Source of the DNA: a virus
DNA: 33,823 nucleotides
Strand: one strand, 5' to 3'
Virus record (IMG/VR): IMGVR_UViG_3300032516_000096
Span: 1 to 33,823 of that record
In this document: piece by piece, positions 12,732 through 31,859 of the stretch
Layout of the letters: each line of letters begins with the position of its first letter
How positions within the stretch are numbered: position 1 is the stretch's first letter
Translations under genes and position numbers: made by a program
The notes under the pieces: generated by a model
The model's input: the letters and a program-made list of their open reading frames with translations, nothing else
Told to the model about the DNA's origin: nothing
Databases searched by the model: none

Positions 12732-14615
12732 CTAGTCCGCTTCTTTACGAGACATCATGTACTGGTACGTGCTCGGACTGGTCACAGGATTGACGTTATG
12801 GGTGGACCAAGTATCTCTGCGCATAGTCAGACCGAACACTACCCCCGCCAGGGCGTCAGCGATGTCCTTGCTACCGTGTGCCGTGTGATCTATCTTACCG
12901 CGCTTGAAATCACGCTCCAAGGTCAACAACTCTCTCTTTAACTTCGTATGCACCGGCATCGGCACACGCCCATCGTATAGCGCTGCCTTAGTGATCTGGT
13001 ACGGCACCATGGTCGTGTCCATACTCTGGTACCCGGTAGTAAACCCCTCGGTCCTCAAGATCTGCATGGTGTCCGCACTCTGGAAACTGTCCAATGTCAC
13101 CCAAGTTATGGGCAATCCCAACTTTCTTAGGGTGTACAAGATCATCCGGATTTTCGCAAACTCTATCTCACCCGAAGGTGGGGGCCGGATCTCCAACGCG
13201 CAATCAATTGCAATGATCGGCAAGGTCTCGGTCGTCTCCGAGAGCTTCACGGTCTTGAACCCCGGGCAATGTCCGATGACCAACCCCGCACTGTCGCCAG
13301 TCAATGCCAGATCCAGGTGTGCAAATCTCTTAAACCTGGGGTTCGTAATCCTTCTAGGGTACAGAATAGGCTTTTGATCTACGAAGTTAACTACTTCCTT
13401 GTCTATAACCGAGAGCCTCTTCCCAAAATTCTGAGTCACACGTTCGGTGTCGGCCATGAACGGGTGAATAGCCAAGGTCGAGCGACCGGCGATATCCCGC
13501 AAGGCCTTGATGATGTCGTCCTTGAATTCTTGTGCGAACTCCACCGGGACCTCATCCAACAGGTTCAAATCGGTAAACGGCACTTGTTCACCAGAGGCCA
13601 GCACCCGGGGCTTACGATTTTCGTCCCCAAGGAACACCTTGAATTTGTCCCCGGAGTAGCTATTGGGCTTGATGTCCCACACACGCTTGTTGTATACGAA
13701 GATCCGGGGGTTTGTTAGGGCCTCTTTCTCTTTCACGTCCGTGAACTGTCCGGGGGTCTTTTTCGAACTCACCAAGCACAAGAGACCCGGCATTACCCCG
13801 GCCCTCATAAATCGGGTCTTGCGGCGTCTGGCAATCGTGTTGTACAACTCGATGGCCTGATCGTACGTACCACCGTCAGAGGCCTGCCTACTGCTCTTAA
13901 CAACGGCCATGAAGTTCACTTCGTCGATAATCCCGCCGATCACGTTCTGCCCAATGGAGGCCGTCTCCGAGCCACTCACGGGCTCTACCTCTACTCTGTT
14001 CGGGAATATCAACTTGCTAGTCAGATCCTCTTTGTGTGGAAAATTGCGCTGAAAATAGGGACTCCCATTTATCATGCTCCTAAAGCGGTCATAGTCCACG
14101 CCCTTAGCCAGTTTCTCCTTGATGTTCTGGAAAACTATCTTAATTTCTGAGCTACTGTCCAGCCCGTAAAGATCATGGGGGTTTCTCAGGCACGACAGCA
14201 TGTACAACTGGTACGCTTGGCTGTAGAGGGCGATGGTAGTTTTTCCGCTACCAATACCCCCAGTAAGAACTGCCTCGTCATATTTTCCCGAGTTCAACTC
14301 CTCCAGGTCCAACATAACCTGAGGGTATATTTCGTGTCCCTTGTTCAGGTAGCTCTTACTCTGGATAAACTCACGAATAGGGACGAACCTACGGTGGTAC
14401 ATCTCCAGATGCTTGAGGGCCGTCTGTGGGCTCCCATTGTGGACCGATATGAGGTCTTGAATGACTTTCGCGTAGAACTCTAACCTAGCCTCTTCATCGG
14501 CTATGTCCTTACCTATGACCCACAGATGATCTGCATATTCAGGACCTACATAGGACTTAAAAATGCCTAGTATCTTCTGCTGGTTATCGAGATAGTCTTT
14601 CGCCGCTAAAACCAA
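12732..14615 (-). CDS. terL: Terminase large subunit
   Basis: The 627-residue protein is the packaging ATPase-nuclease. Walker A is GGIGSGKTT at residues 119-127 and Walker B ends in GGIIDEVNF with Asp231/Glu232. The nuclease domain has HLDLALTGDSAG (433-444, Asp435 and Asp441), VTLDSFQS (Asp509) and KDIADALAG (583-591, Asp584/Asp587), an RNase-H-like set. The start is TTG 14615, behind a strong SD (AAAGGAG, 7 nt), overlapping TerS by 32 bp. One palindromic 12-mer lies inside. It acts with TerS to cut and pump DNA into the prohead. Confidence 0.95.
   Translation of the reverse strand: MVLAAKDYLDNQQKILGIFKSYVGPEYADHLWVIGKDIADEEARLEFYAKVIQDLISVHNGSPQTALKHLEMYHRRFVPIREFIQSKSYLNKGHEIYPQVMLDLEELNSGKYDEAVLTGGIGSGKTTIALYSQAYQLYMLSCLRNPHDLYGLDSSSEIKIVFQNIKEKLAKGVDYDRFRSMINGSPYFQRNFPHKEDLTSKLIFPNRVEVEPVSGSETASIGQNVIGGIIDEVNFMAVVKSSRQASDGGTYDQAIELYNTIARRRKTRFMRAGVMPGLLCLVSSKKTPGQFTDVKEKEALTNPRIFVYNKRVWDIKPNSYSGDKFKVFLGDENRKPRVLASGEQVPFTDLNLLDEVPVEFAQEFKDDIIKALRDIAGRSTLAIHPFMADTERVTQNFGKRLSVIDKEVVNFVDQKPILYPRRITNPRFKRFAHLDLALTGDSAGLVIGHCPGFKTVKLSETTETLPIIAIDCALEIRPPPSGEIEFAKIRMILYTLRKLGLPITWVTLDSFQSADTMQILRTEGFTTGYQSMDTTMVPYQITKAALYDGRVPMPVHTKLKRELLTLERDFKRGKIDHTAHGSKDIADALAGVVFGLTMRRDTWSTHNVNPVTSPSTYQYMMSRKEAD
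13200..13211. repeat. Palindromic 12-mer, copy 5
   Basis: GCAATCAATTGC inside terL, encoding AIDC on the minus strand, a different frame from several other copies. Confidence 0.75.
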
Positions 14616-15201
14616 CTCCGCGCTCCTTTGCGATTTGATCTATCACGGCCATGGCCTGTTGGATGGCTGAGAGTTTTGACACGTCCGGATCTGTGGCTGG
14701 AATGGCGTAAGTCACGCTCTCTATCAACCCGAGGGCTCTACGTTCTTCTTGCAGACCCAGACGAAGCAACTCCATAGCCTCCCTCACAGTGAGAGTATCC
14801 GGCTGTATAGCCTGGATTTTTAGGATGGCCTTGTTCATGGCCAGCCTAGCAAATCTGGCCTGTCTCATACGGATCTCTACTTCACTAACGACCTGAAGCT
14901 CCTGACTTGCAGACGCAGATTCCTTCTGCCGTCGCATCAGTATGTCGTGCAGGACCACGTTCCATTTGTGCTTCGAGGCCTTGTTTCGAATGTACCCGTA
15001 GGTCACTCCAAAATGCTTGGACACGTCCTCAAGCGTGTACGGCCTATCCCGCTCATACAGATTCTCTTTCAGGTAGTGCTGCATATACTTATCGTATGTG
15101 GACTCCCCCAATTCTCCAGAATCTGGGCTAACCATTACCTCTGTAGAAAGAGACCCTAGATTCTCCTCTGGAGCCTTGGTCTTTATGATAGTGACCGCCA
15201 T
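14584..15201 (-). CDS. terS: Terminase small subunit
   Basis: The 205-residue protein lies directly before the large subunit and overlaps it. It has a helix-turn-helix (YTLEDVSKHFGVTYGYIRNK, about residues 55-74) and then long helices (VEIRMRQARFARLAMNKAIL) for oligomerisation, the usual layout of TerS. It should bind the phage packaging site and recruit TerL. ATG 15201 has an AGAAGG SD (7 nt). The identification rests on position, HTH and domain layout, since TerS sequences vary greatly. Confidence 0.8.
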   Translation of the reverse strand: MAVTIIKTKAPEENLGSLSTEVMVSPDSGELGESTYDKYMQHYLKENLYERDRPYTLEDVSKHFGVTYGYIRNKASKHKWNVVLHDILMRRQKESASASQELQVVSEVEIRMRQARFARLAMNKAILKIQAIQPDTLTVREAMELLRLGLQEERRALGLIESVTYAIPATDPDVSKLSAIQQAMAVIDQIAKERGVGFSGERLSR

Positions 15202-15203: not shown

Positions 15204-15971
15204 TCAGGCCTTCTCAGTGGTCCCTTGCAATTGATTGCAATGGGTGACCACTATGTCTGCCATCTTCGCCAGGATAGTCGGAACACTCGTAATGTTGAAC
15301 GTGTACGAGGCCTTGTCCACAGACGCCATAAGCGTTTCATACTCGTCTTGAGTGGCCAGAAACACTTCGTCCACCTGAACATTTTTCAAGAGGTCCAGAG
15401 CCTCTTTCAATAGCTTGTGCTGCAAGGGCAAGAACACCACCGTCAAAGTCTTTGCCTGGAACTCCACCTCAAGGTCCTTGGTGGTCAGCACCAGGGGTAC
15501 TTTAGGTAAGAAACTTTCCATCTGGATAAAAGCCTCTATCCTGGCCTCACTGTCCTTGATGTCGTTGAAGATCTTACTCACAAGGTCCGCATCATCCAGA
15601 CCCTGCAAACTGTTGTGGCTCAGTTGCTTAGAATGCAATCTGTCCCTGGAAATCCCCTGTACATCCACCAACACCCAGACCTCTGACATACCGGCCTTCC
15701 TAGCGGCCCGTAGTCGGTGATGTCCTGAAATAATCTCCAGCCGATCATCAATCAGAGCGCAAAGCGGCAGGCTCTCAAGCCTGCTCTCCCGCCTTATGTT
15801 CTCTGACAACTGATTGAAGGCATCCTGGGTCATAACCCGGGCATTCAACATCTGCTCCTTTGGCAGAGCTATCGGAACCCTCCAAAGCTCCAACCCATTG
15901 CCCAGAACAAACCGTTCCAAAGGCTCTACCTTCAGAACCTGTTTTTCATTGGTCTTTGGCGAGCCAGCCAT
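15204..15971 (-). CDS. ParB-like nuclease-fold protein
   Basis: The 255-residue protein has the ParB/Spo0J N-terminal signature: a TQDAFNQLSENIRRE segment, then LEIISGHHRLRAARKAG (about residues 79-94) and VWVLVD. ATG 15971 is behind AAAGGA (8 nt) and preferred to ATG 15980, which has no spacing. ParB-like domains in phages occur with DNA modification genes and packaging genes; here it lies between a methyltransferase-GNAT fusion and TerS. It could bind or modify DNA with its neighbours. The C-terminal half is not recognised. Confidence 0.8.
   Translation of the reverse strand: MAGSPKTNEKQVLKVEPLERFVLGNGLELWRVPIALPKEQMLNARVMTQDAFNQLSENIRRESRLESLPLCALIDDRLEIISGHHRLRAARKAGMSEVWVLVDVQGISRDRLHSKQLSHNSLQGLDDADLVSKIFNDIKDSEARIEAFIQMESFLPKVPLVLTTKDLEVEFQAKTLTVVFLPLQHKLLKEALDLLKNVQVDEVFLATQDEYETLMASVDKASYTFNITSVPTILAKMADIVVTHCNQLQGTTEKA
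15227..15238. repeat. Palindromic 12-mer, copy 6
   Basis: GCAATTGATTGC near the end of the ParB-like gene, encoding CNQLQ on the minus strand (opposite orientation). Confidence 0.75.
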
Positions 15972-17340
15972 GAAGCACATCCTTTGTCGATTCAGGTTTC
16001 AGGGAAGCCCGGTACACGAGCTTGAACATCCCGTTTGGCATGTTCTCTCTTTTCAACAGTTTCATCAGACCCCTAACCTTCATGATCGAGGGACTGGAGC
16101 TTAAAAACGTGGTCTGATAGTACTCAAGGACCGTACACGAACTGGTGTCTTTCTGATGGGTGGTAGATAGCTGCTCAGCTATTTCTCGCGTACACAGCAG
16201 ATGCGTCATCAGACGCCCCAATTTATACTTACTTTGTGGGAGAGTGATAGAGAACACATCCATGAACACCGGCTGTCGCTTTATGCGCCACGCTGAGTAG
16301 TGCAGACCCGTGACCCCAGCCACTCTACCATCTACGCACAAAAGCGCAAAAGCCTCAGCCCCGGGCATCCCCAGGCCCTTTATGAACAGGTCATAGTAGT
16401 ACATGGCCATGTTCTTGGCCACTGAAATAAACCGTACGTCCGAGTCCTCGGTGATGACCTGATCGTCATACACCGGGTAAACATGGGCTGGATTGCTGGT
16501 AATGGTCCTGCGGATGTACATCGGCTTATCGACAGCTTGGCTACTTAGCAGGTACCGATAAGAATAATCGGCTTTCTGCTCGACCATCAGCAAATGCCAC
16601 CCTGTATTTCCTAGTTTATTTAGAACTTTTTCCTCGACAAAGGCCAAGCTATGCAGGGGCTTTGATGGCAAAGCATTGAAGTAGTCCTTCACAGCCGTGG
16701 GGACCAACTCAGCAATCGCTGGAATTTTCCAACTGTAGATTCCATCGGCCTTGAACATCTTCGTATAACCCCCCGCATACCACGGTGGACTGAAAATCAT
16801 GCACGTACTGGGATCGTCCTCAAATTCTTTCGTATGCTCCAACATGTCCCGGATCCCATAGGTGAGGCCACTACATTTGATCTGGAACTTTGTCAGACCC
16901 TCTCGGTACTGCACGAACAGTCTCTGGATGTCCGCTTCAAATTGCAACCTCTGCCAACGAAGAAACTCATTCTTGGGGAACAACTGAGCCCATTTGATAG
17001 ACAGCAGAATAACCGCAGCCTGATCCAACTCAGTGTCCACCGGCAACTGTGCAATCAATTGCACAAGCGGGGGATCAACCGCAACAAACCCCAGAGCTTG
17101 AACGTGCTTGGTAGGATCCAACAGGTAGCCTAGAACGCTGCTGAACAACGTTATGTCAGAGGCTACTATCTGCTCGGGCTTGACCCCGGAATCGACCAGG
17201 GTCTCTACGTCCGAAAATTGACCGGCACCCGGACTGAAATACCTGGCAGACGGGTGGGTCACTATCAGTGTATGCAGGGCCTTCCGGTGTGGGCTTGTGG
17301 TTATGCCCTTAAACAACGGATCCGGAAAAAACAACGGCAT
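15946..17340 (-). CDS. Predicted antirestriction adenine methyltransferase fused to a GNAT-like domain
   Basis: The 464-residue protein has two parts. Residues 30-190 look like a D12/alpha-type N6-adenine methyltransferase: RYFSPGAGQFSD (33-44) as the SAM-binding FxGxG-type loop, IVASDITLFSSVLGY as the following strand, and MIFSPPWYAGG (181-191), an SPPW version of the catalytic DPPY. Residues 330-460 look GNAT-like: VDGRVAGVTGLHYS, VFMDVFSIT and SKYKLGRLM in the acetyl-CoA loop place. Phage members of this family are annotated as putative antirestriction adenine methyltransferases. The GNAT part could add an acyl group, as Mom does in phage Mu, but this is inference. The SD is weak (GGA). 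Confidence 0.65.
   Translation of the reverse strand: MPLFFPDPLFKGITTSPHRKALHTLIVTHPSARYFSPGAGQFSDVETLVDSGVKPEQIVASDITLFSSVLGYLLDPTKHVQALGFVAVDPPLVQLIAQLPVDTELDQAAVILLSIKWAQLFPKNEFLRWQRLQFEADIQRLFVQYREGLTKFQIKCSGLTYGIRDMLEHTKEFEDDPSTCMIFSPPWYAGGYTKMFKADGIYSWKIPAIAELVPTAVKDYFNALPSKPLHSLAFVEEKVLNKLGNTGWHLLMVEQKADYSYRYLLSSQAVDKPMYIRRTITSNPAHVYPVYDDQVITEDSDVRFISVAKNMAMYYYDLFIKGLGMPGAEAFALLCVDGRVAGVTGLHYSAWRIKRQPVFMDVFSITLPQSKYKLGRLMTHLLCTREIAEQLSTTHQKDTSSCTVLEYYQTTFLSSSPSIMKVRGLMKLLKRENMPNGMFKLVYRASLKPESTKDVLHGWLAKDQ
17051..17062. repeat. Palindromic 12-mer, copy 7
   Basis: GCAATCAATTGC inside the methyltransferase gene, encoding VQLIAQ on the minus strand; GTG..CAC flanks extend the palindrome to 16 bases. 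Confidence 0.75.
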
Positions 17341-17495
17341 AGAATTCCATGATGGAGCGGGAGTCGCTGAATCAAACAGCCCCTCAGAGGCGGAAACCCC
17401 TGCGTATCCCTTGATACTTACCCCGCGTAGGCCTCTGTAATTACCCTGTAATAGAGGGGCCAGAGGATAGCATGGAACTTCTACCCTGTGTCAAC
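17341..17495 (-). promoter_or_regulatory. 155-bp leader with weak promoter and repeats before the methyltransferase gene
   Basis: TTGACA at 17489-17494, just after the DUF488 stop, begins this stretch; a -10 is unclear (TATCCT at 17464-17469 with 19-bp spacing, or GCTATC with 17). Downstream lie two ATTACAG direct repeats 11 bp apart (17435-17441 and 17446-17452) framed by CCTCT...AGAGG. The long leader is unusual here, where most leaders are under 40 nt, and suggests regulation by a bound protein or RNA structure. No gene is evident within it. Confidence 0.5.
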
Positions 17496-18008
17496 TCATT
17501 TGTATTTTCCACCGAATTCATGCCAACCCCAGTCATCCTGGACCTTTCCAAGCAGATCCTGGTGGGACAACAGAGACCCGTCTGGCAGCACATGATTGAT
17601 TTGAAGGGGTTGATGTAGGGCCAACCACTGACTGAGCTTATACGCCCTATGACAGCCTCTGGGGGTGGGTTCTGCACATGCAAGTGCTAGGTTGTTTATC
17701 TGAGCCAGATCATGAACCTTTTTAATCTTCTCAACAAAGTTCGGGTCTTGGACTGTCAGGTGATTCATGCCGCCCAGGAACTTCCCTCCGTACAGGTACG
17801 AGATTCCTGCTTCCTCCAGGGACTCACATAATCTGGCTCGATTATGATGGGGATTGGCTTTGGAACTTGGATAAGACCGTACGTCCACGTACAGGGTGAT
17901 CCCATGAACTCTAAGTCTATCGATCAACTGCTGGGATGTATCTTTTCCATGCCCGATGGTCCATAAACCAACAGAAGGTTTCTCACTCTTCTTGATTTTT
18001 ATTGGCAT
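17496..18008 (-). CDS. DUF488-family protein
   Basis: The 170-residue protein has the DUF488 signatures: LWTIGHGKDT near the N-terminus, LYVDVRSYPSSKANPHHN, YLYGGKFLGG, and later LACAEPTPRGCHR. The conserved Arg, Cys and His residues suggest an enzyme, but the reaction is unknown. It has its own promoter and no SD; the -10 box is 5 nt before the ATG, so the mRNA is likely leaderless. Its position directly before the methyltransferase-GNAT gene suggests a common DNA modification or defence context. Confidence 0.85.
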   Translation of the reverse strand: MPIKIKKSEKPSVGLWTIGHGKDTSQQLIDRLRVHGITLYVDVRSYPSSKANPHHNRARLCESLEEAGISYLYGGKFLGGMNHLTVQDPNFVEKIKKVHDLAQINNLALACAEPTPRGCHRAYKLSQWLALHQPLQINHVLPDGSLLSHQDLLGKVQDDWGWHEFGGKYK

Positions 18009-21217: not shown

Positions 21218-22006
21218 TTACTCAGCAACCTCGACCGTCATGTTCACGTTCGGGAACACCTTCTCGAACAGGCCCAGGACATTTTCCAGGCCCATGGAGA
21301 TCATGGTCCCCGCCAGATCCACGGGTGCACTTGCCACAGCCGAGGCATTCGACAGGTAACCAGCACAGATCGCCGAAATCGCCACGTTGTCGAATTCCGA
21401 ACCGAGTTCACCCTTGGCCTTAGCCAAAGCGTTCTGCACGATTTCCGCTTGATCCTTGTGCAACTTGAACCCGATCTTCACCGTGTCCGTGCTCGTGCCG
21501 GCCGTGCTCTCGCCGGTGGCCGTGCCCTCGTGGGCCTTGATCATGGCCTGGAGTTCCATGACCGTCACCGGCCCGGCCTTGGCCACCCACTCGTCCACGT
21601 TCTCCAAGGTCAAGATCGGCGCCAAGTCCTTCAACTTGGTCCAACCGAGGTTCATGACCTTCTCCCACGGGATCTGCTTGTCCACCAGATTCGTGTAGAT
21701 GTTGATCAGGTAGTCGGCCTTGCGCTTGGCGAAGCCGAACTTCTCCAGCACGTACGCCTCAAACGAAGGGTAGCCGTCGAACCACTGCTCCTTCTGGATC
21801 ATGCGCAGCAAGCCACCGAGACGGAAATGGTTGGCCTCGATGTCCTCGGACAACTTGTCCGCCGCATTCAGGGCCTTGGTCTTGGACATGTGTTCGATCT
21901 CATTCGCGACATCAAACAACAGGTTGCCGGTGGGAACGATCTTGGTCTTGGCCTTGATTACGGGGGCGGCTTCAACCGCAACTGCTTCTGCTTCTGCTTC
22001 AGACAT
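21218..22006 (-). CDS. Predicted helix-turn-helix phage protein
   Basis: The 262-residue protein has an Ala/Glu-rich N-terminus and a central helical domain (FRLGGLLRMIQKEQWFDGYP, then YVLEKFGFAKRKADYLINIY) of a kind that I associate with HTH DNA-binding regions in phage proteins. The C-terminal part (FKLHKDQAEIVQNALAKAK) is a second helical domain. ATG 22006 is behind AAGGAG (9 nt), close downstream of a promoter with a copy of the 12-mer just upstream of its -35. It is thus a candidate transcription factor. Family uncertain. Confidence 0.7.
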   Translation of the reverse strand: MSEAEAEAVAVEAAPVIKAKTKIVPTGNLLFDVANEIEHMSKTKALNAADKLSEDIEANHFRLGGLLRMIQKEQWFDGYPSFEAYVLEKFGFAKRKADYLINIYTNLVDKQIPWEKVMNLGWTKLKDLAPILTLENVDEWVAKAGPVTVMELQAMIKAHEGTATGESTAGTSTDTVKIGFKLHKDQAEIVQNALAKAKGELGSEFDNVAISAICAGYLSNASAVASAPVDLAGTMISMGLENVLGLFEKVFPNVNMTVEVAE

Positions 22007-22046: not shown

Positions 22047-22075
22047 ATATTAGCACCGAGTCGGCGGCTTGTCAA
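22047..22075 (-). promoter_or_regulatory. Sigma-70 promoter with adjacent 12-mer
   Basis: TTGACA at 22070-22075 and TAATAT at 22047-22052, 17 bp apart. The -35 overlaps the stop of the MazG-like gene. A palindromic 12-mer lies 9 bp upstream of the -35. Confidence 0.8.
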
Positions 22076-22941
22076 GTGGTTTGTGCAATTGATTGCGGAT
22101 TTTTTTCGGCCTTCGCCACCTTGGGTTTCACGGTCTTGGTCTTTGCCGGGGCTTCTACAACAGCGGTTTTCATGGCCTCGATCTCTTCCTCAGTTTCCCT
22201 GGACTCGCTGTCGCTCAGATCGAAAAAGCCCTTGCCATACCGCTTTTCCAATTTCGCAATGTTCCCGACAAACACGTTCGAGGGCGTGACCTCAAACAGG
22301 TCATAGACCAGAGCCCAGAAAATGTCGCAGAACTGTTGCAGAAGCAGGATCATCTGAGCTTCCCGCTCGACCCACATCGCCTCGGTCCCAGGCAGATCAA
22401 CGTGGTAGATCTCAACCAGGGTGTCCACTAACTTGAACGAATACTCTGGCTTGTTGAACTTGTTCATAGTCCCGGTCGGAATCCTGAGGCCCGCTGCATC
22501 CACATCAAACACTTTCTTTTCCCGATGCTCTTTCAACACGGACATCTTCGGCCCGTAAAAAACCTTCTTGTTCAAGCTCAGGATGTCAGTTGACAACCGC
22601 AACAATTCCAACAACGCCGCCGTGCGCGTGCCCTTGAGTTTGACTTTCTTGCCGGACCCAGGGATCTTGGCCTTCAACTGCTTGGCCAGGGCCACTACGT
22701 AGTACCCGATGTCCCCGCACTCTTCAAAAGCATTGACCCGCATGTCGTCAGTGAACCGGCTGGCCCCACTGATGTAATCCGACAGCCCTGCGAACAACTC
22801 CCCTACCTCTGTGCTCAGGCCCACCGCCGTGTGCAGGATGTTCACCGTGCGCTGATTTTTGAGCACGTACTTGAGCCCGAGCTTGGCCGGTTTGAGACTC
22901 AAGGTCTTCAGTACATTCTTTCGATAGAGTGCGTTTTCCAT
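22072..22941 (-). CDS. MazG-like nucleoside triphosphate pyrophosphohydrolase
   Basis: The 289-residue protein has the MazG-type metal-binding pattern: GLSTEVGELFAGL with Glu45 and Glu48, and AFEECGDIGYYV with Glu73/Glu74 and Asp77. The later VGNIAKLEKRYGKGFF is typical of such proteins. These enzymes hydrolyse NTPs or dNTPs, and phage versions may shape nucleotide pools or alarmone levels. The protein is longer than single MazG domains, with an inserted middle and a Lys/Ala-rich C-terminal tail. ATG 22941 has an AAAGGA SD. Confidence 0.8.
   Translation of the reverse strand: MENALYRKNVLKTLSLKPAKLGLKYVLKNQRTVNILHTAVGLSTEVGELFAGLSDYISGASRFTDDMRVNAFEECGDIGYYVVALAKQLKAKIPGSGKKVKLKGTRTAALLELLRLSTDILSLNKKVFYGPKMSVLKEHREKKVFDVDAAGLRIPTGTMNKFNKPEYSFKLVDTLVEIYHVDLPGTEAMWVEREAQMILLLQQFCDIFWALVYDLFEVTPSNVFVGNIAKLEKRYGKGFFDLSDSESRETEEEIEAMKTAVVEAPAKTKTVKPKVAKAEKNPQSIAQTT
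22085..22096. repeat. Palindromic 12-mer, copy 8
   Basis: GCAATTGATTGC in the last codons of the MazG-like gene (QSIA on the minus strand), 9 bp upstream of the next promoter. Confidence 0.75.
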
Positions 22942-22961
22942 GGTTGTCCTTTAAGGGTTGA

Positions 22962-23441
22962 TTATCCTCGCTCCACACCTTTGAGCGCCGTTGAAAGTCC
23001 AGAAACTGACAATTCCTGAGCTATTTTTGCCAGAACATAGGCATCCACTAGATCATCCGATGGGCTGAAAAAGCCCCACTTTCCTTCTACGGCCTTTGCT
23101 ACCTCAGATTTCTTGGCATTGCCTTTACCCGTAGCAAACTTCTTAAGTACCGAGGGGGGGCAAGTATAGAAGGGAATTCCCGCTCTGTGGAGAGCCATGC
23201 GAAAAAGAATCCCTATCTCGACCATCAAAGCAAGCGTGTACTTATTCGCGTACCCATAGCCCTCGATCACTACTAGATCTGGTTGCCATTGATGCAAGAA
23301 CCCTCGAAATTCAATATCCAAGGCCTCCAGCCGGTGCAATCCTCGTTTGTCCGGATGGTTCAATACAACCATGGCTATCTTCGGATCATCGATCCACACC
23401 AACCCGGTCTTGGTACTCGGATCCACACCCAGGACTTTCAT
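22962..23441 (-). CDS. RuvC-like Holliday junction resolvase
   Basis: The 159-residue protein has the RuvC fold signatures: KVLGVDPSTKTGL with catalytic Asp7, LVVIEGYGYA with Glu60, and FSPSDDLVDAYVLAKI with Asp130 and Asp133. That set of acidic residues matches the RNase-H-like resolvases, and the size fits. It should resolve branched DNA before packaging or during recombination. ATG 23441 has a CAGGAG SD (7 nt) and overlaps the stop of the Cas4-like nuclease gene, so the two are likely translated together. GTG/ATG starts further up are less likely. Confidence 0.85.
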   Translation of the reverse strand: MKVLGVDPSTKTGLVWIDDPKIAMVVLNHPDKRGLHRLEALDIEFRGFLHQWQPDLVVIEGYGYANKYTLALMVEIGILFRMALHRAGIPFYTCPPSVLKKFATGKGNAKKSEVAKAVEGKWGFFSPSDDLVDAYVLAKIAQELSVSGLSTALKGVERG

Positions 23442-24310
23442 AGATGGGCTCCTGACCAACAGGCCGCTCTAACCGGACATCTTTTTGCGGTCTGACAGCC
23501 TACGTTATCACAGACCTTATGCACGGGAATAGTTTTATTCACACGATGGGCTTGAACTTGAGCACCGAGAGCAACATACGGGGCAACGGCCTCGTCATCT
23601 CGCTGGACAGTAAATTCTTTGAACGGCAGGATATGCCCCACGTCCTTGTTCATCTTTCCATGGCTACGACTGATGTACAACACCCGGGCTTCATCAGTAT
23701 TTACGAACTCCTTGAACGGATTTGTACTTTCAGCCACAAGTTGCAGGTACAACTGGGTCCTGGCTTTGTGCTCTCCCAAAGGGGCCACCAACTTCTCCCA
23801 GTCATCGGCCTTCATGATCTTGAGTTCAATCAACATCACCCGAGCGGCCCCAACATCCAACAACAAGTCAACGGACCCACTTATACGGTGTTCTTTATGG
23901 ATAAACGCCATTTCCTTGTAAGTCCATTCACACTTCTGCATTTTATTGCAGCCCCCCTGGGGTTTGGGTTTGAAGTACTTGGTGATCTCGCACCTGCGAC
24001 AGTACCAGTTGCCTATGGCCTTGTCCCCTGCCCACTCATTGCAAATCAGATCCGCAACAGCCTTTCCCATATCCCAAGTGGCTCTAAGGGCCGGAGGTAC
24101 GTACATGTCAGGACGCGAAATGCCAAGCACGTCCATCAACCGATATTGACGCACGCAGAATCCGCTCTTGGTAACGTCCGAAGCATGGACCGTAGTATGT
24201 GATCGCTCAGGCTGATACGTACCCATGTTCTTTACCAGGACCTCTATCACGTCCTTGGCCTTACTCTTCTGGCTCTGGTCCTCCTTGACCAACTGGATGT
24301 ACTTCAACAT
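23438..24310 (-). CDS. Cas4/RecB-like Fe-S nuclease
   Basis: The 290-residue protein has a PD-(D/E)XK core: ISGSVDLLLDVG with Asp near residue 147, MLIELKIMK with ExK near 162-165, and HKARTQLYLQLV. One cysteine (SGFCVRQYR) lies near residue 52, and a cluster CDNVGCQTAKRCPVRAACW lies at the end, giving candidate ligands for a 4Fe-4S cluster as in Cas4 and AddB. A middle loop with more Cys (CRRCE, CNKMQKC) may be an added zinc site. It probably processes DNA ends with RecA and the other nucleases. The SD is weak. Confidence 0.75.
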   Translation of the reverse strand: MLKYIQLVKEDQSQKSKAKDVIEVLVKNMGTYQPERSHTTVHASDVTKSGFCVRQYRLMDVLGISRPDMYVPPALRATWDMGKAVADLICNEWAGDKAIGNWYCRRCEITKYFKPKPQGGCNKMQKCEWTYKEMAFIHKEHRISGSVDLLLDVGAARVMLIELKIMKADDWEKLVAPLGEHKARTQLYLQLVAESTNPFKEFVNTDEARVLYISRSHGKMNKDVGHILPFKEFTVQRDDEAVAPYVALGAQVQAHRVNKTIPVHKVCDNVGCQTAKRCPVRAACWSGAHL

Positions 24311-24311
24311 G

Positions 24312-24674
24312 CTATTTGCTGTCTGTGAGATCCTGAAAATGACTCAAGGGCATCATAACCCACTGGCTCTCAGCATTGGCCTTTGGTCTGCCGTCCGGTT
24401 GTACAAAGGCCACCAGCAAAGCTGGATTCATGCCCCGGGTGTTCGCCTCTTCCGTGATCTTCACCAACCACCCCAAATCCAGACTCATGGTGCTGTTGAC
24501 TGTGGTCTTACTTTCTATCAGCCACCGACCCATGCTCATGTCGCCCTTGAAGCCCGCCACAGCCCCACTGTTGGGCGTCAGCCGAGCACTGAGTACCTTG
24601 GCCACCTTGGGCTCGTACAACTTGCCATGGGCGTTCCTGGGGGCCGTAGCACGCAACCTATTTGGATCCGCCAT
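24312..24674 (-). CDS. Hjc-like PD-(D/E)XK nuclease
   Basis: The 120-residue protein fits small archaeal-Hjc-like resolvases or related phage endonucleases: GKLYEPKVAKVLSARLTPNSGA at residues 17-38, then GFKGDMSMGRWLIESKTT, where GD and ExK (IESK) form the catalytic motif. LDLGWLVKITEEA and PALLVAF follow. It overlaps the RecA stop by 17 bp and would join the RuvC-like and Cas4-like enzymes in recombination. Whether it cuts junctions or flaps is unknown. Confidence 0.7.
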   Translation of the reverse strand: MADPNRLRATAPRNAHGKLYEPKVAKVLSARLTPNSGAVAGFKGDMSMGRWLIESKTTVNSTMSLDLGWLVKITEEANTRGMNPALLVAFVQPDGRPKANAESQWVMMPLSHFQDLTDSK

Positions 24675-25776
24675 CGGTCTTGTCTTCCAGGGGTTTTTCC
24701 GAGACCATCAACAGGCTGTGATTTTTGATCACCTGTTGCTGTAGCTTCTGTGCGAACGCATCCTCGGCCTTGTACGTGTCCTGGATGGTGACCAAGGTCG
24801 CATAGTTCTTACCAAACAACGCCCACCCACCCTTATCTGACTTGATAAGGTGACCACTGGATTGTAGGTACCCTTTGACTTTTGTAAAACTATCGGTTTC
24901 CCCGACCATCAGCCCTCCGTGCTCGACCATGCACATGTCAAACTCAAAGGACTCCTGAACCACTCCGATCTTGGCCTTTCGAATAACCGCACTCACGGTC
25001 TTCAAAACCGGAATCGCCCCACTGATTTCTTTGACCATCAAGTTCTTACCACTCAGACGCACAATCAGACTGGCCATGAACTTCATGGTCTGCCCCCCGG
25101 GCATTACCTCGGGGTTACCGAACATCACCCCGATCTTGGATCGGGTCTGGTTGATAAACACCACACACGGAGTGTGATCCCGTTTCTGTTCCTCAGACAA
25201 CGCCGTGGCCAGCTTGATACACAGACGTTTTATCAACAACGAACTTGTCCCCACGTCAACTTTCTCGGTGCTGCCTTCAACCTCCCGGATCCCTATCAGG
25301 GCCGCGAGACTGTCCAGGCCCAGGAATGCCACATCATCAGCCCGTACTAGAGCGTCAACCATGTCCACGGCCTGCTCTCCGTACGATGGTTTGGCAACCA
25401 GCAACGCATCTACATCGACCCCGAATTTCATAGCGAATGCCGGGTCGAACGTGCCCTCAACATCGACCAGCACGGCCTTATTACAGGGAGGGGGAAGGCG
25501 CTGGGCACTGGCAATGGCCTTGTACACCAAGTTCGTTTTGCAACTGCTTTCAGGGCCATACAGGATGCTGTACCTACTACAGGGGAAGCCCCCACCAGTG
25601 GCAAGATCAAATTCGAATACGCCCGTGGGCAGGCGCTTGCACTGTGGAATATCTGCCCCTCGAACAATGGACTTCGCCCCCAGTTCCTTGTGGAACTTCG
25701 TTACCGTCAAAGCCAGTTCGCTTGCCTTCGCCAAGGGCACTGGCGCGGTGTCTGTCTTTTTGATCTGGATTGCCAT
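24658..25776 (-). CDS. RecA-like recombinase
   Basis: The 372-residue protein begins with ATG 25776 and has RecA landmarks: LPTGVFEFDLATGGGFP, the Walker A region LYGPESSCKTN (72-82), VLVDVEGTFDP, FLGLDSLAAL (Walker B-like), and VVFINQTRSK...MPGGQTMKF. The usual Gly before Lys in Walker A is Cys here (codon TGC), as T4 UvsX also departs from Gly there. It should catalyse strand exchange in phage recombination-dependent replication or repair. ATG overlaps the upstream stop. Confidence 0.9.
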   Translation of the reverse strand: MAIQIKKTDTAPVPLAKASELALTVTKFHKELGAKSIVRGADIPQCKRLPTGVFEFDLATGGGFPCSRYSILYGPESSCKTNLVYKAIASAQRLPPPCNKAVLVDVEGTFDPAFAMKFGVDVDALLVAKPSYGEQAVDMVDALVRADDVAFLGLDSLAALIGIREVEGSTEKVDVGTSSLLIKRLCIKLATALSEEQKRDHTPCVVFINQTRSKIGVMFGNPEVMPGGQTMKFMASLIVRLSGKNLMVKEISGAIPVLKTVSAVIRKAKIGVVQESFEFDMCMVEHGGLMVGETDSFTKVKGYLQSSGHLIKSDKGGWALFGKNYATLVTIQDTYKAEDAFAQKLQQQVIKNHSLLMVSEKPLEDKTDGGSK

Positions 25777-26147
25777 TAGCCTTTTGCTCCCGCTACTGCT
25801 TCCGATATCTTGGTTGACACCCAATCACTGACGTACTCATAGGTGTCCTCAAGATCTGACTTGTCCACCGGTAGTTCTAGTTGGACCTCCACCCGCACGC
25901 TCTCAAAATTGCCGAGGTTGATGGTCCTGCTGCCCGCCACACGTACTCGACCTTGCCCAAGCAAACCCTTGTCGTGGACCGGGTAGTCCGTAATCCCCTC
26001 ATGAACTACCTTGGAACTAAGGGTATTGGTCTTCTGAACCGACCCGGTAACCTGGGTAAACTTCTGAACAGGGGCTTTGTACTGCCCATCTTTCAGGTGC
26101 TGAGCGTATACAGAATTCTTGGACGGAAGTTTCTTTATGGTGATCAT
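25776..26147 (-). CDS. Hypothetical phage protein
   Basis: ATG 26147 has a GGGAG SD (5 nt) and overlaps the HTH gene stop (TGATG). The 123-residue protein has the region INLGNFESVRVEVQLELPVD followed by a helix DTYEYVSDWVSTKISEAV. A similar pattern occurs in a widespread phage family near replication and recombination genes, but without a known role. It sits between an HTH protein and RecA. Confidence 0.7.
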   Translation of the reverse strand: MITIKKLPSKNSVYAQHLKDGQYKAPVQKFTQVTGSVQKTNTLSSKVVHEGITDYPVHDKGLLGQGRVRVAGSRTINLGNFESVRVEVQLELPVDKSDLEDTYEYVSDWVSTKISEAVAGAKG

Positions 26148-26557
26148 CAGCGCTCCCAATTATGATCGATCACCTGGACGATCACTGCCAGTTGATCCTT
26201 TTTGGTCCCAGCTTTCTTACGCGGGTTCTGAAGAAAAAACTCCCTAAGTAGCTCCAAAAGGCCAAGCTGATCCTCAGTAAACCGAGGGCGACCTACATGC
26301 TTTGTGGGGGCCGGGTATAGCCCTCTAAGCTTCCACTTGTTCAATGTCCAGGGACTGATACCCAGAGCAGTGCACACGTCCTCAGTAGACAAGCCCACAG
26401 GCGACGGTTTTTCTTTTCGCACGCGATCTTTGTAGTCCTTGGTCCTGGCACGAACCAACTCCTTGTACTCTGGGTCGGTTCGATAACGAACCTTGCGTGC
26501 TTCGGACAACCGTTCCCGATTGACCTCGTACCACTGTTTGAATGTAAACCCAGACAT
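26147..26557 (-). CDS. MerR-like helix-turn-helix protein
   Basis: The 136-residue protein has a basic N-terminal half (RYRTDPEYKELVRARTKD, repeatedly Arg/Lys-rich) and a MerR-type winged HTH near residues 55-100: LSTEDVCTALGISPWTLNKWKL, then a wing-like RGLYPAPTKHVGRPRF and a helix LGLLELLREFF. It is a likely DNA-binding regulator. MerR-type proteins bind interrupted palindromes, so it is one candidate for binding the 12-mer of this window. ATG 26557 has a TGGAGG SD. It precedes the RecA block. Confidence 0.75.
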   Translation of the reverse strand: MSGFTFKQWYEVNRERLSEARKVRYRTDPEYKELVRARTKDYKDRVRKEKPSPVGLSTEDVCTALGISPWTLNKWKLRGLYPAPTKHVGRPRFTEDQLGLLELLREFFLQNPRKKAGTKKDQLAVIVQVIDHNWER

Positions 26558-27900
26558 TATACCTCCACTATTGTCGATTTCAAAGAGTAATACTGCTTTA
26601 GGCGAGAAAAATATAAGTTCTTCAACACCGGATGGTCATCCACAAGATCCAGGACTACCGGGTCTTTTTTACCGGTCACAAATCGAAGGATACGACCGAC
26701 CGACTGGCGTATATCAGCCCGGGGAGTCGCCAGGACCAGGGTGTCCCAATGGGGGACGTTCGTGCCCTCGCTCGTCATCTTGTACGTGCCCAGAATCACG
26801 GGCTTGTTCTTTGACACATTCCGTTCTTGGGCGGTCATGCCACCCACGTAATACCCTATATTCTCGCCCGAAATCCCAGTGGAAACAATGTACTGAAATA
26901 GATGGTGCAAATGCCCCTCTATCAAGTCAGACAGCACCAAACACCGCCTACCGGCTTGGAATGCTTGGAACACGAACTCAGCTATCTCCGTGTTCCTGGC
27001 CACATCCGTACCCATGTCCTTGTACAGGCTCATCATTCGGCCAGGGACCACGACCATGGGCATCTTCCGCCACTGCCCTAAATCATTCCTCTGGGGAACC
27101 AAAGGCACCTTGTACCTAGTTTTTTTGACCAAAATCTTTGGATTCATGGGAATCCAACTGCCACGGACCATGATCGGTCCGATGTGGGCTCTGAACAGGG
27201 TGTCCCGACCATCCTGTCTATCTGGAGTCGCGGACAACCCGAGACGATAGCGAGCAGGAAATAACTCACAAACTTGAACAAAATGCTCGGCCCCTAGACG
27301 ATGCACTTCATCGAAAATCACAAGCCCAAAATGATGGTAGAACTCTGGGTCGTATTCTCTCTGCACCAGACTGTGGATCATCCCGATAACAAACCTACAC
27401 CCTTTGTAGTTCTGGATATCCTGTTGAACGTGGCCTATTTCAGAGGGGTTCACCCCAATCAGATGTAGGAGTGTGTTCTTCCACTCTTCCATCAGATCGT
27501 TCTTGGTCACCACGATCAGAGTACGTTGTCCCAGGCCACAAGCAACTACCGCCCCCAACCAACTCTTACCAAACCCAGTGGGAGCATCAACCACATGGTC
27601 TACCCCACTTTTCAGCAGTGCCAAGGACTTTGCGGCACATTCTTTTTGGTCGTCATTCCGAGGCCCGATCTTTGCAATCAATTGCACGACCGGGGCGACC
27701 ACACGATGGTCGTGTTCGACCAGTTGGGTGTTTATCAGCCCCCTCGGAATGTGGGCGTAAGGTTGCCCATGCACGTGCTTGAACATCTCGTAGGTGTTCC
27801 CGAACCGGTCTTGCTTCGTGAGCAAAGTTCGAACCTCAAAATTGAATGGCACCAAGGCCATCGCTCCGAGACTCTTTACAGGCAGTTCGCGCAAGGGCAT
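26557..27900 (-). CDS. SF2 DNA/RNA helicase
   Basis: The 447-residue protein shows SF2 helicase motifs in order: DDQKECAAKSL (Q-like), DAPTGFGKSW (Walker A, residues 105-114), LIVVTKNDL, VIFDEVHRLG (DEVH at 197-200), GLSATPDRQDG and, in the second domain, LGTYKMTSEGTNVPHWD, LVLATPRADIRQSVGRILR. This set resembles UvsW/DEAD-like repair helicases. ATG 27900 lacks a strong SD; ATG 27861 is another option. It likely unwinds recombination intermediates with the SSB and RecA around it. One palindromic 12-mer lies inside. Confidence 0.85.
   Translation of the reverse strand: MPLRELPVKSLGAMALVPFNFEVRTLLTKQDRFGNTYEMFKHVHGQPYAHIPRGLINTQLVEHDHRVVAPVVQLIAKIGPRNDDQKECAAKSLALLKSGVDHVVDAPTGFGKSWLGAVVACGLGQRTLIVVTKNDLMEEWKNTLLHLIGVNPSEIGHVQQDIQNYKGCRFVIGMIHSLVQREYDPEFYHHFGLVIFDEVHRLGAEHFVQVCELFPARYRLGLSATPDRQDGRDTLFRAHIGPIMVRGSWIPMNPKILVKKTRYKVPLVPQRNDLGQWRKMPMVVVPGRMMSLYKDMGTDVARNTEIAEFVFQAFQAGRRCLVLSDLIEGHLHHLFQYIVSTGISGENIGYYVGGMTAQERNVSKNKPVILGTYKMTSEGTNVPHWDTLVLATPRADIRQSVGRILRFVTGKKDPVVLDLVDDHPVLKNLYFSRLKQYYSLKSTIVEV
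27674..27685. repeat. Palindromic 12-mer, copy 9
   Basis: GCAATCAATTGC inside the SF2 helicase gene, encoding VQLIAK on the minus strand. Confidence 0.75.
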
Positions 27901-27904
27901 TGGA

Positions 27905-28687
27905 TTACAATTCTTTGCTGTAATCCGACTTGGATTTAGCCCCTCCTGGAAACATCTCCTTGCCCTTGCCCCCACCGGGATTCATGGTAGTGATCACGGC
28001 CTTGCCCAGACCCATAGCCTGTAGTTCCTCACCAGTGCGGTACACGACCTCCTGCTCATAGTCTGGGGCAACGAAATACGAAACCATTTTCTTCACCCCC
28101 TTCTCCTCGACCTCATGCACGTACTCTTGTTGCAGGGTCTCGATAGGGTTCTTCTCCAGGAAATCGAACATCGAACCGACACTCGCACTATTGTCCCCCA
28201 TGCGACTGACATCGAACGTGCACCCGGCCAGACCCCCGCGCTTGAGTGCGATCTTGGTCAGCATTTCCATGGTGATTGGTTTGGCAACCAGCAACCGAGC
28301 TTGATCGACGTACACCTTGTCGTTCTTGCCCGTGTACGAACGATGGTCGATGATCGTGAACAACGCCACCAACGTTGACCGGTCCCCCGCAGAACACAGG
28401 GGGCACTTGTCCCCGGCCTCTGGACTGGTCTTCTCCGGGCAAACAAAGTTGGTCCACTTTCCACCCAAGTTCACGGTGTGCTCGTAGTACCTGGGGGGAG
28501 CCAGAACCGTGCCGCCTTCGGTCTTCTGAAGGTCACCGTCCACGAACGTGATCTTGGCCTCTTCTTTTTCTTTCAGCCAGAATCGGAACATCTTACCCGC
28601 ACCATCCTTGCGGGCCTGTGCCTCAACTTCGTCTTGTTTTGCAGCGCTTACTGACTGAGCACCGGTCTTGATCCAACTTACTGCCAT
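27905..28687 (-). CDS. Single-stranded DNA-binding protein, gp32-like
   Basis: The 260-residue protein resembles phage SSBs of the gp32 type: MAVSWIKTGAQSVS, a RFWLKEKEEAKITFVDGD strand region, and a zinc site with H70, C83, C95 and C98 (FVCPEKTSPEAGDKCPLCS). The C-terminus is disordered and Gly/Lys-rich, ending SKEL. ATG 28687 has a GGAGG SD and follows a near-perfect promoter by about 54 bp, so it is the first gene of the recombination operon and probably strongly expressed. Confidence 0.8.
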   Translation of the reverse strand: MAVSWIKTGAQSVSAAKQDEVEAQARKDGAGKMFRFWLKEKEEAKITFVDGDLQKTEGGTVLAPPRYYEHTVNLGGKWTNFVCPEKTSPEAGDKCPLCSAGDRSTLVALFTIIDHRSYTGKNDKVYVDQARLLVAKPITMEMLTKIALKRGGLAGCTFDVSRMGDNSASVGSMFDFLEKNPIETLQQEYVHEVEEKGVKKMVSYFVAPDYEQEVVYRTGEELQAMGLGKAVITTMNPGGGKGKEMFPGGAKSKSDYSKEL

Positions 28688-28741
28688 TGTGGGCCTCCTG
28701 CGGTCAAACGTGACCTCGCTGTGTCGAACTGACACGAGCGC

Positions 28742-28770
28742 AGTATAACCCGAAGTTATATGATTGTCAA
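28742..28770 (-). promoter_or_regulatory. Near-consensus sigma-70 promoter
   Basis: TTGACA at 28765-28770 and TATACT at 28742-28747, 17 bp apart. It follows the primase stop directly and drives the SSB-RecA operon from 28687 leftward. Confidence 0.85.
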
Positions 28771-28773
28771 GTG

Positions 28774-29769
28774 TTATATCAATCCGATTTCAGACAGGGC
28801 CTTCTGAACCCAACCAACCCCCAGGGAGTCTGGGTCGGTCTTCGTCTTGCCATCCCATGGTAGCAGGATCGTAAGAGTACTCACCCCCAGCTTATGAAGG
28901 GCACGTTCGAACTTCACTGTGGCCTCGCGTCCAGTGTCATCCCCATCCAGCATCAGAATCACGCCCTCAGCGTACACCAATTTCTGGAGCTTCTCGGCCA
29001 CGGGCTTGGCCGTAAAATTTGCGACTACCACCGGGTAGACTTCGTGCACGCGCATGCAGTCGAATGGCCCCTCGACTACCACCACTGGTCCAGTGTTCTG
29101 TAAAACCGGCTCATTGAACCATGTGATCCCTCCGTTATTCACATTCAATAGCGTGTAATCATGGTGCTTGACCTTCGGTGGGGGCTCACCCGGAATCTCG
29201 ATAGCTCGACCACGGATACCAGCTAGTTGCCCATGCACATTCCAGTACGGGAACAACAGCATATCCCGCTCTGGATCGTATCTGAACTTCCAGTGCTCCA
29301 CCATCACGGACACCGGTAAAAAGTCCCTGCGGGCTAGATAGTACCGAGCGCGATCACTGTGTAAGGCCAAGGGGAATTGGCTAAGCCACCATTCTGGCTG
29401 CTCTTGGAACTGTTTGTTTACAGCCGGAGCAAACTCCAGGTACTCAGGTAGCGGCTGTACCTCTAACTGCTCGGCCTCAACAATAGCCCTTGCAGTGTCC
29501 AGGTTACCGGTGAACAGTCCTGGATTATTTTGTCTGCCGAACTCAATAAGTTGGAACAGGGTGGTAAGGTCTCCGGACTCGCACGCGAAGCAATGAAAAT
29601 GTGCGGCAGTATCCGGACTTACATAGATGCCGAAACTCGGATGACTGTCTTTTCCAGATCGATGTCTGAACGGAGCGAGAGGACAGGATCCGCGCACCCA
29701 CTTCTTGTTCGTACTGTCGTACTTGCTTCCGAGAGCGGAAAGCAGAGCCTTGGCTTGCTCATGGTTCAT
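28774..29769 (-). CDS. DnaG-like DNA primase (CHC2-TOPRIM)
   Basis: The 331-residue protein has an N-terminal CHC2-type zinc finger with C29, H36, C60 and C63 (GSCPLAPFRH, then HFHCFACESGD). The TOPRIM catalytic core follows: VVVEGPFDCMRV with Glu233 and ILMLDGDDTG with Asp275 and Asp277. It is a compact, single-chain phage primase without the DnaB-binding C-terminal domain of bacterial DnaG. It should prime synthesis with the DnaB-like helicase encoded upstream. The SD is weak and the start overlaps the previous stop. Confidence 0.9.
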   Translation of the reverse strand: MNHEQAKALLSALGSKYDSTNKKWVRGSCPLAPFRHRSGKDSHPSFGIYVSPDTAAHFHCFACESGDLTTLFQLIEFGRQNNPGLFTGNLDTARAIVEAEQLEVQPLPEYLEFAPAVNKQFQEQPEWWLSQFPLALHSDRARYYLARRDFLPVSVMVEHWKFRYDPERDMLLFPYWNVHGQLAGIRGRAIEIPGEPPPKVKHHDYTLLNVNNGGITWFNEPVLQNTGPVVVVEGPFDCMRVHEVYPVVVANFTAKPVAEKLQKLVYAEGVILMLDGDDTGREATVKFERALHKLGVSTLTILLPWDGKTKTDPDSLGVGWVQKALSEIGLI

Positions 29770-30014
29770 TCTCTGCCAAGATCAATGAGAGCCTGGGAGA
29801 GCATGTCCGGAACAACATCCTGCCGGAGATCTTTTCCAGCATCAAGCATTGTGCAAAAATATGCACTGGCCCACCCAAGCGCAGAGATACGTTCGTCATG
29901 AACTAGGGCCTCAAGCTCGTCAAACGTTCTTGTGGTCGGGTAAATGCCCTGTTCATCAGGATTGTCTAACATCTGACTGATGATGGCGCAGATGGCTGTA
30001 CGGTCCCTGTTCAT
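29766..30014 (-). CDS. Small hypothetical phage protein
   Basis: The 82-residue helical protein contains ELEALVHDERISALGWASAYFCTMLDAGKD and a PDMLSQALIDLG end. Proteins with this GWA...LD.G.D pattern are frequent in phage early regions. ATG 30014 is 4 bp from the upstream stop; its stop overlaps the primase ATG. No function is known. Confidence 0.65.
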   Translation of the reverse strand: MNRDRTAICAIISQMLDNPDEQGIYPTTRTFDELEALVHDERISALGWASAYFCTMLDAGKDLRQDVVPDMLSQALIDLGRE

Positions 30015-30017
30015 TGC

Positions 30018-30341
30018 CTAGTCCGTGTGCTTGAGGATATGAATTTCCTGGGTGGTCAGCACCTGGGCACAGATGTCAGCATGTACGGTCTCGGCCTGAT
30101 CCCAGGTGTGGCTACGACGCACGGTCCCATCCAGAGGCCCACCGAACACCATGGTCTCGAACATGGCCGACACCGCAGCATGGTAGGAAACACCCAGAAA
30201 CACTGTGCTCACCCAGGTCTCCCCTACGAGGGTTTCCTTCACCCGACGATTTTCGGCGTTCATGAGCCAACTGGTCCATTCCAGCACACTTGAGCATGGA
30301 ACGGGCTTTTGCTCCTGGAGAGTAAAAAGCATTCTGATCAT
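30018..30341 (-). CDS. Small hypothetical phage protein (FGGPLDG type)
   Basis: The 107-residue protein has the layout SSVLEWTSWLM, VSTVFLGVSYH, FETMVFGGPLDG, TWDQAETVHADI. I recognise this as a common phage family whose function is unknown. ATG 30341 has an AGAAGG SD (7 nt) and starts directly at the upstream stop. It may be cotranslated with its neighbours. Confidence 0.75.
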   Translation of the reverse strand: MIRMLFTLQEQKPVPCSSVLEWTSWLMNAENRRVKETLVGETWVSTVFLGVSYHAAVSAMFETMVFGGPLDGTVRRSHTWDQAETVHADICAQVLTTQEIHILKHTD

Positions 30342-30626
30342 CTACATCACCTTCTGATTTGGATCTACTGGGGCGCTGGAATCAAATTTGCCTTTCCTGA
30401 ACTCGTACTGATCTTCTCCCACGATCTTCGCACAAGACAGATTGTGCAGCGCACACAACATCTTGACTCGTTCATACGAAATCACCCGGGAATCGAGTCT
30501 CACCCCCTGATGGCCAAGTTCCAGCAGGGCCAGAACCTGTTTCTCTTCAAAAGTCAGGGACACGTTCAGCTTGGGCTTCAAGAACGGGTATGTCTGCTCC
30601 GGAACTGAGGAGTCTGATTCGGCCAT
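30342..30626 (-). CDS. Hypothetical protein, 94 aa
   Basis: The protein starts MAESDSSVPEQTYPFLKPKL and has helical segments (LTFEEKQVLALLELGHQGV, YERVKMLCALHNLSC) that may form a small DNA-binding or protein-binding fold; a C-terminal strand follows. ATG 30626 has an AAAGGA SD. A 70-bp gap before it holds only a weak promoter-like sequence (TTGCGG-N18-TAGAAT). Not recognised. Confidence 0.65.
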   Translation of the reverse strand: MAESDSSVPEQTYPFLKPKLNVSLTFEEKQVLALLELGHQGVRLDSRVISYERVKMLCALHNLSCAKIVGEDQYEFRKGKFDSSAPVDPNQKVM

Positions 30627-30697
30627 GATCTTCCTTTCAAGGGTATGAGACTGGATTTGATTCTAGTACCTTGAGGGGCTGGGCCGCAACTTCATAC

Positions 30698-31225
30698 CTA
30701 GGCCATATTCAGTTGTGCAAATCCGGCTCGCAGTGAAGCCTGCGCTGTTTTCCACAGCATAGGATCGCCCTTACCCAGAACTTGCAACAGCGCCTCTTTT
30801 TCTCGCAGATACACCCGAGCAAACTTTGGGTCATGTTCAACAATGCTTATAGTGTTGTCGATCAAATCCGCCAACTTGATGGTCTGCGCCGCTCCCGGAG
30901 CCCGAGCCATACGTTCCCGATCCAGGGCCTTGCGCTTGGTCCGGTTCTCCAGAACATTGGTGTCCGTCAACCAGTACACGTACTCATAGACCAGAGAGCC
31001 CGCATGCCTTCGAATATCAAGCAAAGACACCCCACAGTCCTCGACAGTATCGTGCAACCATGCTGCGGCCAGCATCTGCCAACTGTGAGGCACGCTCTTT
31101 ACCAGTTCTACCACCGCCTGGGGGTGCAGGATGTACGGCTCACCCGTGTACTTTCGACGGTGATCGATAGCACCATGGGCTCTTCGAGCAAAATCCTCGG
31201 CCCACACTAAGCGGGAAGTACGCAC
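30698..31225 (-). CDS. SpoT-like HD-domain hydrolase (small alarmone hydrolase-like)
   Basis: The 175-residue protein matches stand-alone ppGpp hydrolases (MESH1/SAH type): ARRAHGAIDHRRKYTGEPYILHP (His17, His34), AAAWLHDTVEDCG with HD at 58-59 and ED at 62-63, and TIKLADLIDNTI with Asp120 and Asn124. In this family, these residues hold Mn2+ and cleave the 3'-pyrophosphate of (p)ppGpp. It starts with GTG 31225 (SD GAGG). It could also act on related nucleotides or neutralise a RelA-like toxin; the phage also encodes a RelA/SpoT-like protein at 11870-12691. Confidence 0.8.
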   Translation of the reverse strand: MRTSRLVWAEDFARRAHGAIDHRRKYTGEPYILHPQAVVELVKSVPHSWQMLAAAWLHDTVEDCGVSLLDIRRHAGSLVYEYVYWLTDTNVLENRTKRKALDRERMARAPGAAQTIKLADLIDNTISIVEHDPKFARVYLREKEALLQVLGKGDPMLWKTAQASLRAGFAQLNMA

Positions 31226-31232
31226 TGAGACC

Positions 31233-31851: not shown

Positions 31852-31859
31852 GAAAATTT

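Follow-up and report, generated by a model that had tools for sequence, protein, structure and literature searches.

What does a phage gain from joining a DNA adenine methyltransferase-like domain to a GNAT-like domain in a single protein, and from setting the gene for that fusion between a DUF488 gene and a ParB-like gene? The question is raised by a 33.8-kb viral stretch of DNA (IMGVR_UViG_3300032516_000096; all 33,823 nt of it are hereafter called the window), whose minus strand encodes in order a DUF488 protein (17496-18008; 170 amino acids, aa), the fusion (15946-17340; 464 aa) after a gap of 155 nt, and a ParB-like protein (15204-15980; 258 aa) whose gene shares 35 nt with the 3′ end of the fusion gene, with terminase genes following. 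An original prediction had picked out all three open reading frames (ORFs), and each was found at exactly these coordinates; it regarded the fusion as a possible one-protein hypermodification or antirestriction enzyme, likened it to Mom of phage Mu and suggested that DNA might be marked just before packaging. We propose that the three genes may together constitute a phage DNA-modification cassette, probably shielding phage DNA from host restriction, a reading that we put at a probability of roughly 0.5. Broadly understood, a role in modifying DNA stands at about even odds, and true acyl hypermodification of a base would be doubtful.

Evidence for a cassette came from gene order across relatives of the fusion. 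Among 85 distinct fusions, 82 were testable downstream (at least 900 nt of sequence), and in all 82 the next gene was ParB-like, a recurrence which argues that the arrangement is not due to chance; two loci (L118 and L120) carry an extra 1.1-1.5 kb between the two genes. Of the first set of loci collected, 78 were not cut by a contig end, and in every one of them the ParB-like gene and the 3′ part of the fusion overlap; a reverse search from the ParB-like side recovered a fusion upstream in 50 of 50 loci with upstream sequence, identifying the ParB-like protein as an obligate partner. Of 69 relatives with enough upstream sequence, 63 (91%) have a DUF488 or DUF488-N3a-like gene on the same strand no more than 4 kb upstream. 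This partner was usually DUF488-N3a-like, with canonical DUF488 in the window and in loci L112 and L136. Microbacterium phage ValentiniPuff encodes DUF488 (gp112) and DUF488-N3a-like (gp111) proteins at the end of its record and the fusion (gp1) at the start, and so these genes would be neighbours if the ends join. The exact five-gene order of the window, terminase genes included, was shared with L112, its nearest relative (39% identity in the fusion, 58% in the ParB-like protein). The tight linkage of ParB-like and DUF488 flanks agrees with the original prediction, but its idea of a one-protein enzyme is not borne out: with the ParB-like gene never missing and DUF488 so frequent, the locus resembles a module of two or three proteins.

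The fusion itself combines DAM-like-phage1 (PF22555; aa 10-235, 16636-17313; 97.6 bits, E 1e-27) and GNAT-phage-like (PF22559; aa 300-463, 15952-16443; 75.6 bits, E 5.3e-21) in one polypeptide, against curated cut-offs of 27, and matches phrog_7858 (unknown function; E 5.9e-36). Both Pfam families were present in all 39 aligned relatives (the window protein plus 38), from which an AlphaFold2 model was built with a mean pLDDT of 80.6. The first Foldseek match to this model in the PDB was the S-adenosylmethionine (SAM)-bound N6-adenine methyltransferase DpnM (2dpm; E 5.4e-5, probability 1.00), albeit with modest TM-scores (0.27/0.44), followed by many GNATs that bind coenzyme A (CoA) or acetyl-CoA (probability 1.00, E 1e-4 to 1e-3). 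A methyltransferase-GNAT fusion is therefore borne out by both family and fold-level matches, and the C-terminal half did not model as a non-GNAT fold. Sequence searches of the PDB with the fusion, its alignment profile and the DUF488 protein yielded no usable solved relative. The top match to the whole fusion among viral structures in BFVD was A0A8S5SJK3 of Siphoviridae sp. ct4Uy2, which aligned over 479 columns at E 3.9e-21; named ‘Amidoligase enzyme’, this protein of 695 aa is probably a related fusion under a misleading label. In every pair of relatives with estimable dS, dN/dS (the ratio of non-synonymous to synonymous substitution rates) was about 0.03-0.43 for both domains, many other pairs being saturated; both domains are under purifying selection, and the GNAT half is therefore not decaying.

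Is the methylase-like half still a methylase? Its earlier description as ‘D12-like’ holds at the level of fold, and both cited motifs occur in it, SPGAG at aa 36-40 and SPPW at aa 184-187, but the D12 model PF02086 did not match the window protein and touched one of 39 relatives (E 0.13). We consequently rejected D12 as a sequence-based assignment, retaining kinship at fold level. In the family consensus, tabulated over 39 non-redundant relatives, motif I reads EPCxGxF, motif II is an SD whose acidic residue is invariant, and motif IV reads NPPT, replaced in some members by NVP, SLP or SVP; several lack one P of the D12 catalytic motif [DNS]PP[YFW]. The window departs from this consensus, with SPGAGQF (aa 36-42; 17215-17235) and SPPW (16780-16791) instead of EPCxGxF and NPPT. 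Retention of motif II, and of motif I for the most part, suggests a cofactor pocket, whereas methyl transfer is uncertain because the motif IV aromatic residue is missing in most members; judging from these motifs, the domain may serve partly for DNA binding or base flipping. A phage-borne SAM synthetase gene was found upstream in a minority of loci (10/59; L002, L007, L009, L016, L022, L051, L064, L067, L072 and L076), which fits a SAM-using enzyme. These data bear on a simpler explanation, in which the protein simply methylates adenine, or cytosine at N4, to counter restriction and its GNAT half is a protein acetyltransferase, acting on host proteins or in self-regulation. DpnM as the top structural match, the co-occurring SAM synthetase, the workable catalytic motif SPPW of the window and the common role of GNATs in protein acetylation would all suit such an enzyme. 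We nevertheless consider it unlikely, as the motifs of most relatives (NPPT, or NVP, SLP and SVP) are unusual in an active methylase and, fragments aside, no genome that was scanned had the GNAT domain without the methylase domain: in 200 Streptomycetaceae genomes, 11 matched each family and 10 matched both, the leftover match on either side being a fragment.

The ParB-like partner matched phrog_7405 (E 4.9e-54) and scored 25.0 bits (E 1.9e-5) against ParB_N (PF02195), just below the cut-off of 26.3. It keeps the putative nucleoside triphosphate (NTP)-binding box-II motif SGHHR (aa 85-89; 15714-15728), which is invariant across the ParB-like alignment and whose arginine is needed for NTP binding in other ParB-fold proteins (PMC12704722).

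The DUF488 partner is also a member of its family, scoring 51 bits (E 2.8e-13) against PF04343 (cut-off 22.2) and carrying a C111-x-E113…C119-H-R121 motif (17646-17678) that was unchanged across a six-sequence alignment; the corresponding C-x-[ED]…CHR was kept in 66 of 66 DUF488-N3a-like relatives. A low-confidence DUF488 model (pLDDT 69) gave only weak matches to PTP-phosphatase-like folds (best E 0.01), which we treat as a hint only. The window DUF488 also matches a PADLOC candidate defence family, PDC-M45B (E 2.8e-29), despite sitting in a phage cassette. Many of the DUF488-N3a-like proteins end in a motif resembling QLxLF, an established beta-clamp-binding consensus that is usually C-terminal (PMC4549789). 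Defined as Q[LMIT][SDTN][LMI]F within the last 30 residues, the canonical form of this clamp-like tail occurred in 25 of 64 distinct DUF488-N3a tails compared with 5 of 1876 other ORFs from the same loci (0.27%), an approximately 140-fold excess, and a looser form occurred in 48 of 64 against 2.6% of these background ORFs. A shuffle control for QxxLF returned a mean of 0.6 of 66, against 29 observed, and the ParB-like and fusion tails carried no such motif. QLSLF and its variants end the DUF488-N3a-like proteins of L007, L025, L051, L057, L147 and others.

Clamp-like tails on many DUF488 partners, together with the defence-family match in the window, could point to an anti-host or inter-phage conflict module, with DUF488 targeting the host sliding clamp or nucleotides and the fusion and ParB-like protein acting as its partners or immunity. 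We think this very unlikely: the cassette adjoins late packaging genes in most of the phages, the universal retention of C-x-E…CHR suggests an enzyme over a binding inhibitor, and the DUF488 of the window has no such tail.

Proximity to packaging genes raises a different possibility. Downstream of the ParB-like gene, on the same strand, lie a probable terminase small subunit (TerS; 14584-15201, 205 aa) and the terminase large subunit (TerL; 12732-14615, 627 aa), making a five-gene run in which the downstream genes overlap or nearly so. Of the two terminase assignments made previously, TerL was upheld by weak PHROG matches (phrog_2, E 2.6e-5; phrog_17415, E 3.7e-5), but the TerS ORF matched no terminase family in Pfam or PHROG searches, so that its label derives from its position between ParB-like and TerL and from synteny with relatives. 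In 42 of 59 relatives, too, the cassette is followed by terminase genes of the shared TerS and TerL families, and L112 and L136 keep the order of the window. In phage P1, cleavage at pac is Dam-dependent, offering a model in which methylase-like and ParB-like proteins mark or bind a pac or cos site to place and time the terminase, and the consecutive ParB-like, TerS and TerL genes are what a packaging regulator would predict. Mycobacteriophage Jeon argues otherwise: its DUF488-N3a-like (gp65), fusion (gp68) and ParB (gp69) genes are distant from terminase (gp2) even with the genome ends joined, so that the cassette, not its linkage to terminase, is the constant. As the clamp-like tails of DUF488 also point toward replication, we consider a packaging regulator distinctly improbable. 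The same two lines of evidence favour marking around replication over marking just before packaging, as had been envisaged originally.

How, then, might a DNA-modification cassette operate? We infer phage DNA as its target, with transfer of an acyl group, loading or gating of the fusion by the ParB-like protein, coupling of the marking to replication and antirestriction as the benefit to the phage. In such a scheme, (i) the methyltransferase-fold half would bind phage DNA and flip out or mark a base, using either SAM or its fold alone; (ii) the GNAT half would move an acyl group from acyl-CoA onto that base or a nearby target; (iii) the ParB-like protein would provide nucleotide-driven DNA loading or a regulatory switch for the fusion; and (iv) the DUF488 enzyme would supply a third activity, tied in many relatives to the replication sliding clamp, such that marking would fall on newly made DNA and not at packaging. 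The most elaborate version, a clamp-tethered three-protein hypermodification machine in which the methylase fold flips a base for the acyltransferase of the same chain, a new acylated phage base results and a ParB-type NTP switch controls loading, is one that we offer tentatively and hold to be rather unlikely.

Several observations weigh against the modification scheme. Motif IV is mostly NPPT across the 39 relatives, leaving it without the aromatic residue, and in motif I this family has F at the position which the final G of GxG occupies in D12 enzymes. Neither the canonical GNAT tyrosine nor the CoA-loop motif Q/RxxGxG/A is evident by eye in the GNAT-like domain, with R376 and L377 invariant instead, and the usual substrates of GNATs are proteins or small molecules. 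The canonical clamp-like tail occurs in only 8 of the 30 clusters formed at 70% identity, mostly within one broad clade, and the window’s own DUF488 lies outside the set of proteins that carry it.

Relatives of the fusion are found in phages and prophages of Firmicutes, Actinobacteria and others. Searches by tblastn identified Faecalibacterium phage Brigit and Microbacterium phage ValentiniPuff, and a further search via Brigit identified eight Mycobacterium phage records. Contig scans added several tens of viral contigs, and 30 loci came from bacterial genomes, mostly with Firmicutes and Streptomyces labels as well as Synergistales, Mailhella and Prevotella metagenome-assembled genomes. The window protein is divergent, with at most about 30% identity to relatives other than L112, and a viral-contig scan with its sequence alone returned no matches; alignments were needed to recover the relatives. 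In the Gemmiger order, one of 295 genomes exceeded the cut-off and this was the seed genome, indicating sporadic occurrence, as expected of phage genes. If our reading is true, the cassette would represent a widespread phage DNA-marking strategy, overlooked as ‘hypothetical protein’ in isolated Faecalibacterium, Microbacterium and Mycobacterium phages. It would also tie a DNA-modifying enzyme to a switch of the ParB type and, in many of these viruses, to the replication clamp of the host. With the cassette present in laboratory phages, any base that it produces is directly testable by mass spectrometry of virion DNA.

Elsewhere in the window, upstream of the cassette (21218-22006), lies a gene for a phrog_17202 protein (unknown function) which by eye resembles a protein encoded in the same area of L112 (2259-3176). 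Further upstream on the same strand (22072-33143) are genes for a MazG-like pyrophosphatase, an exonuclease, a UvsX/RecA-like recombinase, a helicase, a probable SSB, a primase and a DnaB-like helicase. Candidate promoter-like and terminator-like sites near the cassette were no commoner than chance and were set aside.

Among known systems, the closest counterpart of the fusion is the PF22555 plus PF22559 family itself (PHROG 7858, unknown function), of which the window protein is clearly a member, being the same two-domain protein and far above both cut-offs. These families are already named in Pfam, from sequence, and we found no tested function for either; in open-licence PMC literature we likewise found no description of the domain set, the conserved cassette or the clamp-like tails.

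Likeness to Mom of phage Mu, a GNAT-fold enzyme that modifies adenine in DNA, consists of the GNAT fold and a weak profile match spanning the N-terminal half of the GNAT domain: the GNAT-domain profile aligned with 14 Mom proteins at E 1e-4 over 74 columns, compared with 0.25-0.84 for unrelated control profiles, although this may reflect general GNAT kinship because the controls included no non-Mom GNAT families. The 14 Mom proteins share a pattern HY…S-x-A-D…Y, in which the conserved His-Tyr and Asp are catalytic. Neither the HY nor the SxAD residues are conserved in the fusion family, where the closest counterpart, His321, is replaced by Lys in the window. The Mom model PF25680 recovered Mu Mom at 253 bits and matched neither the window fusion nor its 38 relatives at E up to 10; with the weak profile similarity all that was left, membership of the Mom family was rejected. 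Mom, unlike the fusion, also has no methylase domain. The analogy drawn in the original prediction therefore survives as a weak profile-profile signal and in no stricter sense: the fusion may work like Mom, but that it is a Mom is not supported. Some phages also pair a Mom gene with an adjoining ParB-like gene. In Microbacterium phage Appa (L093, 3469-4621), ParB-like gp46 overlaps Mom-like gp47, an independent pairing of ParB with a GNAT-type DNA modifier.

DpnM and the D12-class N6-adenine methyltransferases provide the best solved fold match, and the fusion family arranges its motifs as they do (I, insert, IV) and has in common with them an acidic residue, invariant in motif II, but differs from the D12 pattern in motifs I and IV. 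The Dpd 7-deazaguanine DNA-modification system, in which ParB-like DpdB works with a base-modifying enzyme (PMC12839542), likewise sets a ParB-like NTPase beside a DNA base-modifying enzyme; it differs in its chemistry, and our cassette showed no homologue of TGT or DpdA. Finally, a 2025 survey of ParB-CTPase-fold proteins described natural fusions of the ParB fold to methyltransferases (ATP-binding), an acetyltransferase (GTP-binding) and DUF488-HTH (CTP-binding) (PMC12704722). The window ParB differs from these in being encoded by a separate, overlapping gene, and its nucleotide binding is putative, but it keeps the SGHHR motif, and all partner types of the cassette recur as ParB-fold fusions elsewhere.

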